Below are positions 11,287-17,015 of a stretch of DNA of 64,000 nucleotides, in pieces (position 1 is the stretch's first letter; each line of letters opens with the position of its first letter). This DNA is from Desulfovibrio sp. MES5. Lineage in GTDB: Bacteria; Desulfobacterota; Desulfovibrionia; Desulfovibrionales; Desulfovibrionaceae. The DNA is taken from positions 1 to 64,000 of the forward strand of contig NZ_MJUZ01000005.1 of the NCBI RefSeq assembly GCF_002237645.1, written 5' to 3'. The notes below the pieces were generated by a model. The model was given only the letters and a program-made list of their open reading frames with translations. It did not search any database and was not told the origin of the DNA. Position numbers and translations under genes: made by a program.

Positions 11287-11973
11287 ATGAGTGATATCAG
11301 ATGGTTGGGACATTCGGCGTTCAAGATCAGCTGCAATGACGCGCATGTGGTCATTGACCCGTTTCTGGCGCCGCATCTGGGTCTCACGGTTGCCGATGTG
11401 GGGCATGTGGACCTTGTGCTCGTGACCCACGACCACGGTGATCACGTGGGTGAAGCCGTGAACATTTGCCGGTCCACAGGGGCCATGCTGGGCGCTGTGG
11501 TGGGCACGGCCCACAAGGCTGGGGCCGGGCTGCCCGACAGCCAGATACTCAACGGCATCGGCTTCAATATCGGCGGCACGCTGGCGCACAAGGGCATCAG
11601 CGTGACCATGACCCAGGCCTTCCATACCAGTGATTCGGGATGCCCCACAGGCTACATAGTGCGTATGCCCGATGGCCTCACGGTCTATCACTCTGGCGAC
11701 ACTTGTGTTTTTGGCGATATGGCCCTGTGGGGACAGCTGTACCACATCGACGTGGCCCTGCTGCCTATCGGCGGCGTTTTCACTATGGACGCCCCCCAGG
11801 CTGCCATGGCTTGCAAGCTGCTTGGATGCAAAAGCGTTGTGCCCATGCATTGGGGCACCTTTCCCGTGCTGGCGCAGAACACAAAGGCCTTTGAAGCGGA
11901 GCTGGCAAAGCTTGATCTGTCCTGCGCCTGCGTGGCAATGGAGCCCGGCCAGACGCTTTCTTTCCCCGTCTAG
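11287..11973 (+). CDS. UPF0173 metallo-beta-lactamase-fold hydrolase
   Basis: 228 residues, with GAGGAG 8-13 nt before the ATG. Typical UPF0173 features are present: WLGHSAFKI at the start, VIDPFL, the metal-binding [10 protein letters not shown] (HxHxDH type), a His in TQAFHTS, the GDTCVFGDM Asp motif, and a late MHWGTFP His. Such proteins bind two metal ions, and the physiological substrate is generally unknown. The gene ends before a perfect bidirectional terminator shared with the convergent flagellin gene. Confidence 0.85.
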
Positions 11974-12105
11974 AGCATGTTATTTTCGACACGGGCAAGC
12001 CGGATAAACCTGGCAAGCCGGCTGCACGCCTGAAAGGCGGGCGCTGCACCCGCGATGGCTTCGCAATGCCTTGCCGTTTGCGCCATGGCAAGGGAGCCAA
12101 AAAAG

Positions 12106-12137
12106 GACGGCCGGTCTGCATATGCAGACCGGCCGTC
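12106..12137. terminator. Perfect 32-bp palindromic bidirectional terminator
   Basis: A perfect inverted repeat of two 16-base arms (GACGGCCGGTCTGCAT and its complement). ATTATTTTTCTT follows on the plus strand and CTTTTTTGG in the other direction. It separates the hydrolase gene from the convergent flagellin gene. Confidence 0.9.
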
Positions 12138-12217
12138 ATTATTTTTCTTGCCGAGCGACACTCCCCTGTCGCAAGGCCATCATGGGCAAACGCCCTCCGC
12201 CACCTGGTTGTCCAGCC

Positions 12218-13114
12218 CTACCGTGTGATGAGCGAAAGCGCCATCTGAGGCATGCTGTTGGCCTGCGAAAGCATGGCCACAGCAGACTGGGTGAGGATCT
12301 GGTTGCGCACGAATGCCGTCATTTCCGTGGCCACGTCCACGTCGGAAATGCGGGATTCGGCAGCCTGCAGGTTCTGGGACTGGGTGGTAAGGTTGGAAAT
12401 GGTGTTTTCCAGCCTGTTTTGCAATGCGCCAAGGTGAGCACGGATCTTGTCCTTGGAGATTACAGCATTGTTAAGCCCCACAAGGGCCTTCTGCGCGGCT
12501 TCCTGGGTGGAAACCGTACGGGCGTCGGCCGTGGTGGTGTGGGAGGTTGCCTGGTTGCCCACGCCCAAGGCCGAGGCGGTGCTCGTACCGATCTTGATGT
12601 AGTAGTAGTCTTCCGCCGAGTCGTTCATGCTGCCGAAGTGGATCTTCATCTTGCCGGTAGAATCCATGGCGGAACCACTGTGCGTGTCGCCAGACAGACT
12701 GCCGTCAAGCAGCTTGATGCCGTTGAAGTCCGTGGCGTTGGCAATTCGGGTAATTTCCGAAGCCATGGCCTGGTACTCCGAATCGATCATCAGACGCTGG
12801 GTGGAGTCATAGGTGCCGGTTGCGGCCTGTTCGGCCAGTTCCTTCATGCGGATGAGCTTTTCGTCGATGACGCTCAGAGCGCCGTCAGCGGTCTGGATGA
12901 GGGAAATGGCGTCATTGGCGTTGCGCACGCCCTGCTGCAGGGCGGCGATGTCGGTGCGCATCAGTTCGCGGATGGCAAGGCCAGCGGCGTCGTCAGCCGC
13001 AGAGTTGATGCGCAGCCCTGTGGACAGGCGCTGCACCGAGGTGCGCAGGTTGCTATAGTTGCTTGTCAGCGTATTGGATACCTGCGTAGCCATCTGGTTG
13101 TGATTGATATACAT
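12218..13114 (-). CDS. fliC: Flagellin (copy 1)
   Basis: 298 residues from MYINHNQMATQV; GGAGGA stands 6 nt before the ATG. Both conserved flagellin ends are present: the N-terminal D0/D1 part (LSTGLRINSAADDAAGLAIR, RNANDAISLIQTADGAL) and the C-terminal part (RAHLGALQNRLENTISNL, SRISDVDVATEM, ending SQANSMPQMALSLI). The central variable domain is short, as in other Desulfovibrio flagellins. It is nearly identical to the copy at 14349-15242, which lies in the opposite orientation. The promoter upstream matches the sigma-28 consensus. Confidence 0.95.
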   Translation of the reverse strand: MYINHNQMATQVSNTLTSNYSNLRTSVQRLSTGLRINSAADDAAGLAIRELMRTDIAALQQGVRNANDAISLIQTADGALSVIDEKLIRMKELAEQAATGTYDSTQRLMIDSEYQAMASEITRIANATDFNGIKLLDGSLSGDTHSGSAMDSTGKMKIHFGSMNDSAEDYYYIKIGTSTASALGVGNQATSHTTTADARTVSTQEAAQKALVGLNNAVISKDKIRAHLGALQNRLENTISNLTTQSQNLQAAESRISDVDVATEMTAFVRNQILTQSAVAMLSQANSMPQMALSLITR

Positions 13115-13193
13115 ACATTCCTCCATGAATGCTGTACGTCCCAGGCGGCGCGAAATGCCAACGCGTCCTTGCGTATTACCGCCTCTGCCAGTC

Positions 13194-13220
13194 ATATCGG
13201 CTATAATGCAAAGGGCATTA
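13194..13220 (-). promoter_or_regulatory. Sigma-28 (FliA) promoter of flagellin copy 1
   Basis: On the minus strand TAAT, exactly 15 nt, then GCCGATAT, against the flagellar sigma-28 consensus TAAA-N15-GCCGATAA. The -10 element ends about 80 nt before the start codon. Confidence 0.75.
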
Positions 13221-13282
13221 GGGGGGTGATAAAAATCGCCTCCAGCCCCGGAGTTTTCGCGTGGCGGCAAATATTGCCGTAT

Positions 13283-13316
13283 AAAAAAGGGCCCCCGCCA
13301 CAATGGGGGGGCCCTT
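13283..13316 (-). terminator. Terminator of hsp20
   Basis: GC-rich stem (AAGGGCCCCC paired with GGGGGCCCTT) followed, on the minus strand, by a run of six T. It stands about 115 nt after the hsp20 stop. Confidence 0.8.
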
Positions 13317-13430
13317 GCGGGTCGGAGCGTCAGACCCGCGCGGAGGAGGAGGGGCGCCGCGCGTACGCGGTTTCGCTCACGGGCACAAGGCCCGGCTGTT
13401 TTCAGCCCGGGTTCCGGCGTCTATGCCGGA

Positions 13431-13949
13431 TCAGGCTTTGGCAATCTCAATCTTTTTCACTTCCGGCAGGGCTTCAGCCTTGCGGGGAATGGTTATGCGC
13501 AGCACGCCGTTTTTATGGCTGGCGCTTATGCCGTTGATGTCCACATCTTCCGGCAGGCTCAAAATCCTGCGGAAAGAGCCGAACACCCGTTCCGACACGC
13601 AGCAGTTTTCATTTTCTTCAGTCGTTTCCCGCTTTTTCTCTCCGCTTATGACAAGCTCACGATCTTTCAGGGAAACATCCACGTTTTCCGGCTCCACACC
13701 CGGCAGTTCCACATTGAGGACATAGGCCTTTTCATCACCGGCCATGTCCATGCTGGGCGTGAGGGCTTCATTCTCTTTCGTCTGGGGCCAGTCGCCCCGC
13801 ACGCCGTCCCAAGGGGTCAGCATGCCCTGAAACAGGCCCTGGAAGAATCTGTCGATGTCATCGAACTTATGGCCTGTTCCTTCACGTTGACGCAGTGCTT
13901 CGCGCGGCACAAACCACCTGTTGGGGATAAGACGCAGGTTGTTACGCAT
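13431..13949 (-). CDS. Hsp20 / alpha-crystallin small heat-shock protein
   Basis: 172 residues, with AGGAGG about 10 nt before the ATG. The alpha-crystallin domain spans about residues 65-160: MDMAGDEKAYVLNVELPGVE, DVSLKDRELVISGEKKRE, FGSFRRILSLPEDVD and the conserved KNGVLRITIPR. An N-terminal arm of about 60 residues (with FFQGLFQGML) and an I-x-I-type tail end (KKIEIAKA) complete the family layout. It is an ATP-independent holdase for unfolded proteins. It lies alone between two inverted flagellin genes, a position with no obvious functional link. Confidence 0.93.
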   Translation of the reverse strand: MRNNLRLIPNRWFVPREALRQREGTGHKFDDIDRFFQGLFQGMLTPWDGVRGDWPQTKENEALTPSMDMAGDEKAYVLNVELPGVEPENVDVSLKDRELVISGEKKRETTEENENCCVSERVFGSFRRILSLPEDVDINGISASHKNGVLRITIPRKAEALPEVKKIEIAKA

Positions 13950-13984
13950 GATGCAAAACCTCCTGTGGAAAATTTTATATCTCT

Positions 13985-14012
13985 AAGATAAGTATCACTT
14001 TATGGTTGTCAA
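13985..14012 (-). promoter_or_regulatory. Promoter of hsp20
   Basis: On the minus strand TTGACA, a 16-nt spacer and TATCTT. The -10 ends about 35 nt before the start codon. The shape is sigma-70-like, and no clear sigma-32 or CIRCE element is seen. Confidence 0.55.
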
Positions 14013-14100
14013 GTCCGTGTTGAAAACTTTTTAAAAAATTGTACGTCAGACCCGGCATCGTCGGTATGACAATAATTTGACTTTACCGCCTGTCTGTAAC

Positions 14101-14116
14101 TGGCATGATTCCTGCT
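14101..14116 (+). promoter_or_regulatory. Sigma-54 promoter upstream of flagellin copy 2
   Basis: TGGCATG-N4-CTGCT with the invariant GG and GC separated by 10 nt, against the consensus TGGCACG-N4-TTGCW. It lies about 230 nt upstream of the flagellin start, giving a long leader. No sigma-28 site was found for this copy. Confidence 0.6.
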
Positions 14117-14348
14117 TTATCCCATGCGCAGGTTAGGGGGGCAGTTTTTACCTCGCGGCAGCCACGGACACCGCAGGAAATAAAAGGCCCATATGATTGG
14201 GAGGCCCGCCCCGGCATTGAGACGTGGCGAAGCCAATTGGTAAAAACCATCATCCGTTCGTTATTCGAACATTGTGCGGCGGCAGTCCGCAAGGAAGCGG
14301 GCGCGCGCAAGCGCCGCCGGGCATGCAGAACATTCAAGGAGGAATGTC

Positions 14349-15242
14349 ATGTATATCAATCACAATCAGATGGCCACGCAAGTGGCCAATACGCTGACAT
14401 CGAACTATGGCAAGCTGTCAACTTCGGTGCAGCGTCTGTCCACGGGTCTGCGCGTCAACTCTGCGGCTGATGATGCCGCCGGCCTCGCCATTCGCGAGCT
14501 GATGCGTACCGACATCGCCGCTCTGCAGCAGGGTGTGCGTAACGCCAACGACGCCATTTCCCTCATCCAGACCGCTGACGGCGCACTGAGCGTCATCGAC
14601 GAAAAGCTCATCCGCATGAAGGAACTGGCCGAACAGGCCGCCACGGGCACCTATGACTCCACCCAGCGTCTGATGATTGATTCGGAGTACCAGGCCATGG
14701 CTTCGGAAATTACCCGAATTGCCAACGCCACGGACTTCAACGGTCTCAAGCTGCTGGACGGCAGTCTGTCTGGCGACACGCACAGCGGGTCTGCTATGGA
14801 AGCGACCGGCAAGATGAAGATCCACTTCGGCACCATGAACGACTCGGCGGAAGACTACTACTACATCCAGATCGGTACGAGCACCGCCTCGGCCCTGGGT
14901 GTGGGCAACCAGGCTACCGCTCACAGTGCCACGGCCGACGCCCGTACGGTTTCCACGCAGGAAGCCGCGCAGAAGGCCTTGGTGGGTCTTAATGCCGCAG
15001 TGGTCTCCAAGGACAAGATCCGTGCTCACCTTGGCGCATTGCAGAACAGGCTGGAAAACACCATCTCCAACCTCACCACCCAGTCCCAGAACCTGCAGGC
15101 TGCCGAATCCCGCATTTCCGACGTGGACGTGGCCACGGAAATGACGTCATTCGTGCGCAACCAGATCCTCACCCAGTCCGCTGTGGCCATGCTTTCGCAG
15201 GCCAACAGCATGCCTCAGATGGCCATGAAGCTTATTGGCTAG
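14349..15242 (+). CDS. fliC: Flagellin (copy 2)
   Basis: 297 residues from MYINHNQMATQV, with AAGGAGGA upstream of the ATG. It differs from the copy at 12218-13114 at only a few positions (for example KLSTSVQ for NLRTSVQ, LRVNSAA for LRINSAA, and MKLIG instead of LSLITR at the end). It carries both conserved flagellin ends and the same short central domain, so both genes should give functional filament subunits. The upstream sigma-54-type promoter differs from the sigma-28 type of the other copy, suggesting different timing. The two genes form a long inverted repeat around hsp20. Confidence 0.95.
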   Translation: MYINHNQMATQVANTLTSNYGKLSTSVQRLSTGLRVNSAADDAAGLAIRELMRTDIAALQQGVRNANDAISLIQTADGALSVIDEKLIRMKELAEQAATGTYDSTQRLMIDSEYQAMASEITRIANATDFNGLKLLDGSLSGDTHSGSAMEATGKMKIHFGTMNDSAEDYYYIQIGTSTASALGVGNQATAHSATADARTVSTQEAAQKALVGLNAAVVSKDKIRAHLGALQNRLENTISNLTTQSQNLQAAESRISDVDVATEMTSFVRNQILTQSAVAMLSQANSMPQMAMKLIG

Positions 15243-15686
15243 CATGGACCGGCTTAGGCCGGGCCTGGTTGAGGGCGTGCCCTGGCACGCACACAAATGT
15301 CCCCGGGGGGCAACCTCCGGGGATACTTGCGTATGAAAGATTCCACAGGCCTGGGGCCGCGATGGGCCCGCGCAAAAGAATGTTTTTTGCCCAAGAAGAC
15401 AGGGCAAGCGCACGTTGAGACTATGCAGGCGGCGCATGAGCGGGGCGCTCGCCGTGAAGGCGCAAGCGTCGCCTGTATGCGCCGCCAAGCTCCGAAACGG
15501 GCATCTGCAGACAGTGGGAATGTACAGTTGCACCATTGGTCAGCCCCAGGGGCCAAAGGGGCAGCGCACCCCCTGCCGTCGCGGGCTGAAACCCTGCGCG
15601 CAAAGCAGCCGCCCACCGCAAAAGCGGCAGTTCCGGCGGCTACTCCGGCGGGCTGTTACGGCAGACGGACGAAAAATCTTGCGCGA
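15243..15686. other. Convergent intergenic region between flagellin copy 2 and rimO
   Basis: About 440 GC-rich bases without a credible gene. Two short hairpins follow the flagellin stop (GCGTGCC / GGCACGC near 15275-15290 and CCCCGG / CCGGGG at 15302-15323); neither has a T-run. A stretch near 15427-15470 (GCGCTCGCCGTGAAG) resembles 48420-48460 and may be another dispersed element. Confidence 0.4.
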
Positions 15687-17015
15687 CTATGCCAGGGCCG
15701 TCAGATCATATTCCGTATTTTCAACAATGTCGCATTCAACCAGGGCGCCGGGTGCAACGCCGGGGCCGCTTACATAGGTGATGCCGTCCACCTCCGGCGC
15801 CTGAAGCCACACGCGCCCGCTGTGCAGACCCGGCCATTCGGGATGCGGCGCGTCCACAAGCACCTGCATGCGACTGCCCACATGGGCCGCCAGCAGGCGT
15901 TCGCTGATGTCTGCCTGTATGTCCATAAGGGTGTCGCGCCGCCACTGTTTTACCTCGTCAGGCACCTGGTCGGGCAAGGCGGCCGCCAGGGTGCCCTCCT
16001 CGGCGTAGTAGGCAAAAACGCCCACATGCTGGAAGGAGCTTTCTTCCACAAAGCGGCACAGACTTTCAAAGTGTTCTTCCGTCTCGCCGGGGTAGCCCAC
16101 AATAAAGGTGGTGCGCAGCGCCGCCTGCGGCAAATTTTGCCGCACTGTGTCGAGCACCCGCCTGGGATTGCCCGCAAAGGGCCGCCCCATGCGGGAAAGC
16201 ACGTCGGGATGGGCGTGCTGCAGGGGAATATCCAGGTAGGGCAGGAGCGGCGCTCCGGTGTCTCTGATAAGCCGCAGCAGGTCCGGGGTCACCCCCGTGG
16301 GATAGAGGTACAGGAGGCGCAGCCATGCCAGGCCCTCAAGCCCAACCAGTTTTTCCAGCAGCAAGGGGAGGCCGTTTTTATAGCCAAGATCAGCGCCCCA
16401 GGACGTGAGATCCTGGGCCACCAGCGCCAGTTCGCGCACGCCCTGTCCAAGCAGGGCTCTGGCCTCGTCAACTATATGCTCGGCTGTGAGGGACTTGAGC
16501 CCGCCCCTGATGGAAGGAATGGTGCAAAAAGCGCAGTTATGCCTGCATCCTTCGCCCACCTTGAGCCATGCGTAGGACGGCCCCGTGGAAAGCAGGCGGC
16601 CGCCGCCCGGCACGGATTCCGGCGGACGCGGCAGACCAAGGGCATCCGCCACCATGGCCGGCCAGCGCGGCAGAGCCGCTGTGGGCAGCCACAGATCCAC
16701 CTCTGGCAGATCCTCGGCCAGGCCTTCCGCGCCATAGCGCCCGACCATACAGCCGCCCACAACCAGCAGGGGCTTTTTTTTGCAGGAACCAAGGCGCTGT
16801 CCGGCATCCAGAACGGCGCGTACGGATTCACGAACAGCAGGGTCGATAAATCCGCAGGTATTGATAAAGACAAGGTCGGCGCGGCCCATGTGCTCCACAT
16901 GGTTCACGGGCACGCCCAACGAACCCAGCAGGCGCTCGCTGTCCACCCTGTTTTTGGGACACCCCAGGCTCAGTGACCAGACCTTAAGTTTTTTCAGGCT
17001 TGTTTTGTATGTCAT
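15687..17015 (-). CDS. rimO: Ribosomal protein S12 methylthiotransferase RimO
   Basis: 442 residues. RimO adds a methylthio group to an aspartate of ribosomal protein S12. The N-terminal MTTase domain carries C19, C54 and C89 (SLGCPKN, INTCGF, VGGCM) for one 4Fe-4S cluster. The radical-SAM domain has C157-x3-C161-x2-C164 (GCRHNCAFCTIPSIRG). Later family motifs are PYLDIPLQHA and TTFIVGYPGETEEHF, and a C-terminal TRAM domain starts near residue 370. The length is normal. The PYLDIPLQH form favours RimO over MiaB. The ribosome binding site is weak. Confidence 0.95.
   Translation of the reverse strand: MTYKTSLKKLKVWSLSLGCPKNRVDSERLLGSLGVPVNHVEHMGRADLVFINTCGFIDPAVRESVRAVLDAGQRLGSCKKKPLLVVGGCMVGRYGAEGLAEDLPEVDLWLPTAALPRWPAMVADALGLPRPPESVPGGGRLLSTGPSYAWLKVGEGCRHNCAFCTIPSIRGGLKSLTAEHIVDEARALLGQGVRELALVAQDLTSWGADLGYKNGLPLLLEKLVGLEGLAWLRLLYLYPTGVTPDLLRLIRDTGAPLLPYLDIPLQHAHPDVLSRMGRPFAGNPRRVLDTVRQNLPQAALRTTFIVGYPGETEEHFESLCRFVEESSFQHVGVFAYYAEEGTLAAALPDQVPDEVKQWRRDTLMDIQADISERLLAAHVGSRMQVLVDAPHPEWPGLHSGRVWLQAPEVDGITYVSGPGVAPGALVECDIVENTEYDLTALA

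Follow-up and report, generated by a model that had tools for sequence, protein, structure and literature searches.

Two nearly identical flagellin genes of a Desulfovibrio genome (G000; 3.47 Mb in 52 contigs) form what we regard, with good confidence, as a stably inverted pair that supplies nearly one filament protein under two sigma factors, with the proteins presumably kept alike by gene conversion and with a presumed CsrA/FliW checkpoint in their leaders. The pair lies in a stretch of 64,000 nucleotides, referred to here as the window. As read from the genomes compared, the promoter classes follow gene position, the inverted orientation belongs to a single clade, the gene interiors are homogenized, the gene ends are position-specific, and both genes share a leader whose base pairs covary. 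What we infer in addition is that CsrA binds the leaders, that FliW relieves the block, and that the genes differ in timing.

Layout of the locus and its two promoters

The sequence-only reading of this region had described two near-identical flagellins inverted around an hsp20 gene, and the arrangement proved to be just that, with the region's limits at 12,218 and 15,242 coinciding with the ends of the flagellin genes. Copy 1 (12,218–13,114, minus strand) and copy 2 (14,349–15,242, plus strand) encode proteins of 298 and 297 amino acids, both with Flagellin_N and Flagellin_C domains, that differ at 19 substituted positions and by a single additional residue at the C-terminus. The arms of the inverted repeat (12,240–13,114 and 14,349–15,223) are 875 nt long and 92% complementary, with 1234 nt between them, and a second inverted pair of 37 nt and 81% (13,115–13,151 and 14,311–14,347) covers part of the leaders. 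The gene at the center (13,431–13,949, minus) is identified as HSP20 by a domain match. Copy 2 has as its fixed neighbor a rimO-like gene (15,687–17,015, minus) with Radical_SAM, UPF0004, and TRAM_2 domains, and we therefore refer to copy 2 and its homologues as P, the rimO-side copies, and to copy 1 and its homologues as D, the distal copies; the names rimO, ubiX, gapA, fba, and surE are our own readings of the sequences.

A terminator-like hairpin 3' of hsp20 (13,292–13,309, minus) would insulate copy 1, and another, of 14 pairs and terminator-like on both strands, lies behind copy 1 (12,106–12,137); six terminator-like sites were found in the region, with 4.0 expected in shuffles. We also note a sigma-70-like promoter, TTGACA-16-TATCTT, before hsp20 (13,985–14,012, minus), the only one in the region; chance alone would give 1.4.

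The two copies carry different promoter motifs, scored against what we take to be the sigma-28 and sigma-54 consensus letters. Upstream of copy 1 is a sigma-28-like site (13,194–13,220, minus; TAATGCCC-N11-GCCGATAT) that matches 11/16 consensus letters and lies 106 nt before the ATG; upstream of copy 2 is a sigma-54-like site (14,101–14,116, plus; TGGCATGATTCCTGCT, of the form TGGCATG-N4-CTGCT) that matches 10/12 and lies 248 nt before the ATG. A lone match of either kind is weak evidence, because the two strands of the window, 128 kb in all, hold six matches of each class, or about 0.02 per 500-base upstream region; what makes both sites credible is their conservation in matching positions among relatives. 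All 17 of 17 P copies have a sigma-54 site scoring 10/12 or better, and no site scoring 9/12 or better occurs in the 16 D copies. Likewise, a sigma-28 site of at least 11/16 is found in 15/16 D copies, at the homologous position in 14 of them; the best match in the D copy of G007 sits elsewhere, and the D copy of G024 lacks such a site. The mediocre score of the window's own copy 1 site counts against the promoter split, and sigma-28-like matches also occur in 5/17 P copies, none of them in the inverted clade. Among additional loci, G025 and G026 follow the positional pattern, neither flagellin copy of G051 has a sigma-28 site, and the three copies of G036 have, respectively, a sigma-54 site, a weak sigma-28-like site, and neither. 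Genes for FliA-type and RpoN sigma factors are present in the window's genome. The earlier assignment of a sigma-28 site to copy 1 and a sigma-54 site to copy 2 thus holds at the level of conserved motifs, and on these motifs the promoter split is old and tied to gene position, whether the pair is tandem or inverted.

A structured leader common to both copies

Each flagellin message is predicted to begin with a structured leader, which runs through the ATG and occupies 13,112–13,186 (minus) at copy 1 and 14,275–14,351 (plus) at copy 2. In both, an outer stem surrounds an inner hairpin with the loop CA-N-GGA-N-G and is followed by a Shine-Dalgarno hairpin that presents CA-N-GGA-G-G at the ribosome site. 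The motif CANGGANG lies in the loops of both hairpins in 70 of 73 leaders, the two sites being 40–49 nt apart, against a background in the window of 0.5 per kb of strand; it has been lost, in part or whole, in both loci of G140 and in one copy of G051. A covariance model built from 31 leaders has two matches in the whole of its own genome, both at these flagellins, and has matches in 39/149 genomes and 12/44 genera of the family; all 32 further leader loci that were read precede a flagellin start. We note that the third, middle tandem flagellin copy of G036 (L127:7828-8724) is without the conserved leader.

In an alignment of 73 leaders, 60 of them distinct, 98.6% of cells pair. Nine of the 17 pairs are changed on both sides, a level reached in 0/500 shuffles, and sliding the pairing partners destroys the covariation. 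The fitting of the alignment to the model favors this result, and related sequences can exceed shuffles of this kind. Folded by itself, the copy 1 leader does not exceed its shuffles in stability (z -0.12), and the copy 2 leader is unusually stable (z -2.94). A search of Rfam across 11,800–15,800 returned five matches up to E 1, all weak and unrelated and none at the leaders.

The GGA-bearing loops, one of them over the ribosome site, suggest a target of CsrA, and both csrA and fliW are present in the genome, where the two directly follow a more distant flagellin match on contig C11 that we take, from its context, to be flgL. The conserved leader shared by the two flagellin messages probably works as a translational brake. 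A leader with two GGA hexaloops is bound by CsrA in Campylobacter jejuni flaA, and FliW relieves the block, according to the portion of that report available (PMC4894983). By this likeness and by its conserved motifs, the Desulfovibrio leader is probably a CsrA/FliW element. A structured element that serves mRNA stability, or one bound by an RNA-binding protein other than CsrA, would also account for an outer stem that is stable and lies at the predicted 5' end, where it could itself protect the message; we consider this unlikely, as it leaves unaccounted for the recurrence of CANGGANG in both hairpin loops, that of the ribosome site included, as well as the position of csrA and fliW beside the flgL-like gene and the proven action of a similar layout in C. 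jejuni flaA.

A third flagellin gene of the genome, on another contig (G000:C8:21754-22644; L035), is about 80% alike, and 54 nt ahead of its ATG stands a sigma-54 site close to consensus. Its homologues have such a site 52–63 nt before the ATG in 16/16 genomes read, without the CANGGANG leader, and this flagellin takes no part in the homogenization described below.

Orientation among relatives and homogenization of the copies

We compared the window with 20 further loci; 20 of these 21 hold at least two flagellins. The pair is inverted in six of the 20 (G000, G057, G058, G046, G008, and G010) and tandem in 14. The six inverted loci form one clade in the flagellin tree, with support of 0.999, and of 100/98 in a second tree in which G046 is represented by its P copy alone. 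The gene order of the tandem form, as in G001, G003, and G019, is surE-fba-gapA-D-(hsp20)-P-rimO. The D copy of the window faces a metallo-beta-lactamase-fold gene in place of gapA, fba, and surE, and these three genes are found on contig C35 (L160:9745-12834), away from the flagellin pair. Wherever hsp20 is present, whole or as a remnant, it lies on the strand opposite to P (10/10 loci). It is decayed in G010 (L121:4494-4880) and was not found in G046 (L119:560-1257), and it is therefore not an essential part of the flagellin arrangement. The rimO-side flagellin of G058 (L118:9184-10088) is frameshifted near codon 228, either through an assembly error or because the gene is broken.

Within the inverted clade the arrangement is constant. 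The rimO-side copy keeps its sigma-54 site in 6/6 genomes, hsp20 has the same orientation in the 5/5 that retain it or a remnant, and in the five in which both copies are covered it is always the sigma-28 gene that ends in the D-type codons; by promoter side, no flipped center was found in these six species representatives. From this conserved arrangement it follows, for the genomes seen, that the D copy was reversed once in the clade and that the center has not flipped since. An origin of the inverted state by a single inversion, through crossing-over between the copies, was considered and does not fit: the block rimO-P-hsp20 is unchanged in order and direction, D is reversed, and the old neighbors gapA, fba, and surE lie on C35. 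The inversion appears to be a chance event that a single clade has inherited.

The sequence-only reading had proposed that recombination between the arms would flip the center, exchange promoters and N-terminal halves, and so act as a possible switch. The promoters, leaders, and first codons all lie in the segment between the arms, and for this very reason a flip trades only the C-terminal parts; it follows from the geometry that at most part of the 19 substitutions and one end residue would be altered and that neither gene would be silenced. RecA-dependent flipping of the 1.2-kb center in part of a population, recoupling each promoter and N-terminus with the other C-terminal part, would not lack for a substrate. 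Arms of such length and identity are adequate for homologous recombination, and here they contain 13 runs of exact identity of at least 25 nt, the longest of 72, 65, and 56 nt. We nonetheless judge it very unlikely that such a switch operates, given that only one orientation was seen among the species representatives, whether by promoter side or by hsp20, that leaders and last codons remain linked as before across relatives, that a flip turns nothing off, and that no recombinase site was identified and no recombinase was among the eight proteins scanned. The invertible flagellar switch of Salmonella, hin, resembles the window in having a promoter-bearing segment between inverted repeats near flagellin genes; it differs in that the arms in the window are whole genes and neither promoter is parted from the start of its gene, and in that the window has no flipped relative among those found and no identified recombinase gene or short recombination site.

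A stable pair raises the matter of how its proteins stay alike. In the interior of the gene (nt 91–867), the D and P sequences of one species cluster together in G008, G010, G016, G007, and G024, and the AU test rejects a single clade of D copies (p-AU 0.0001). A copy's closest relative is its own partner in 5/15 species for the interior, in 2/15 for the first 90 nt, and in 0/15 for the last 24 nt. The nearest leader is of the same class, D or P, in 31/31 cases, and D and P leaders of one species are at most 74.4% identical. Non-reciprocal conversion yields just such a pattern, with similar interiors between ends that do not move, and gene conversion rather than crossing-over would thus be what keeps the two proteins alike. 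The D copies of G007 and G019 carry P-like last codons, which counts against this account, and the clade of G001, G003, G005, G022, G023, and G042 has old, separate D and P copies.

The suggestion that gene conversion explains the similarity therefore stands for the pair within the genus, where interiors are homogenized, with a qualification for the window's own species. There the D and P interiors are 93.1% alike, and the P copy is 96.0% alike to that of G057, so that the homogenization predates the split of the window's species from G057 and G058. The D and P copies of this species are not each other's closest relatives, which counts against the account we favor, and no clear recent conversion tract was found in it, the shared sites being scattered. 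That the copies are alike merely because the duplication is recent, as their high identity and shared leader architecture might suggest, is rejected for whole genes, given that independent recent duplications would have carried the leaders along and that the leader classes (31/31) are instead older than the sampled species, with ends conserved by position and interiors that follow species.

Proposed working of the pair and comparison with known systems

In the account that we favor, copy 2, transcribed with sigma-54, would be a middle flagellar gene, and copy 1, transcribed with sigma-28, a late gene that comes on after FliA release, with non-reciprocal gene conversion keeping both proteins alike. 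CsrA would bind the leader at its two CANGGANG loops, one of which holds the ribosome site, FliW would lift the block, and both genes would pass one translational checkpoint. We lean toward the further proposal that the leader represents a family of structured RNA not described before. As a CsrA/FliW element with two sites, it would place two flagellins, one early (sigma-54) and one late (sigma-28), under one checkpoint, while conversion between fixed ends would keep the proteins interchangeable. If this is correct, the outcome is one protein, two timings, and one brake, with promoter timing, kept by position, separable from protein identity, kept by conversion. The leader would then be a more useful discovery than the inverted orientation, and its conservation yields a sequence-level prediction that CsrA controls flagellin in the Desulfovibrionaceae.

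The hag message of Bacillus subtilis carries a CsrA-type leader over its ribosome site. The amount of flagellin in B. subtilis is controlled through FliW and CsrA, as stated in the part of the report available (PMC6529632), and the proposed control in the window is alike in this respect and unlike it in that a single flagellin is regulated there. Our literature search found no publication combining CsrA, FliW, Desulfovibrio, and flagellin; the available portions of a study of Oleidesulfovibrio non-coding RNAs (PMC11124144) do not mention flagellin, and those of a Geobacter FliW paper (PMC13407953) do not mention Desulfovibrio. In the D. vulgaris sigma-54 regulome (PMC4641369), the largest sigma-54 group is that of motility and cell exterior, which includes flagella, and the words fliA and flaB are absent from the portion of that text available. 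Paralogous flagellins of the Alteromonadales fla genes are likewise kept alike over long times, by concerted evolution, according to the accessible part of the account (PMC6053082); conversion at the window's locus differs in its limits, which are set by promoters, leaders, and 3' ends specific to each position.

By analogy, the closest known system is the flaA/flaB pair of C. jejuni. These genes, in the sections available of PMC5126078, are adjacent and 95% alike, with most of the differences toward the ends and with recombination between the copies; flaA is under sigma-28 and flaB under sigma-54. The window likewise has two closely similar linked flagellin genes with one sigma-28 and one sigma-54 promoter, present as motifs conserved by position. 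Campylobacter belongs to a different phylum, and the window pair is known from sequence alone. The genes are in tandem in C. jejuni, unlike those of the window, which are inverted around hsp20 and have separate flanks, and the likeness we claim is one of working alone. Both window copies, moreover, carry the two-site leader, with sites 40–49 nt apart, whereas the GGA motifs of the flaA leader are 21 nt apart in the text available. The comparison suggests that a Campylobacter-like design of sigma-54/sigma-28 twin flagellins exists in sulfate reducers and has survived a change of orientation.
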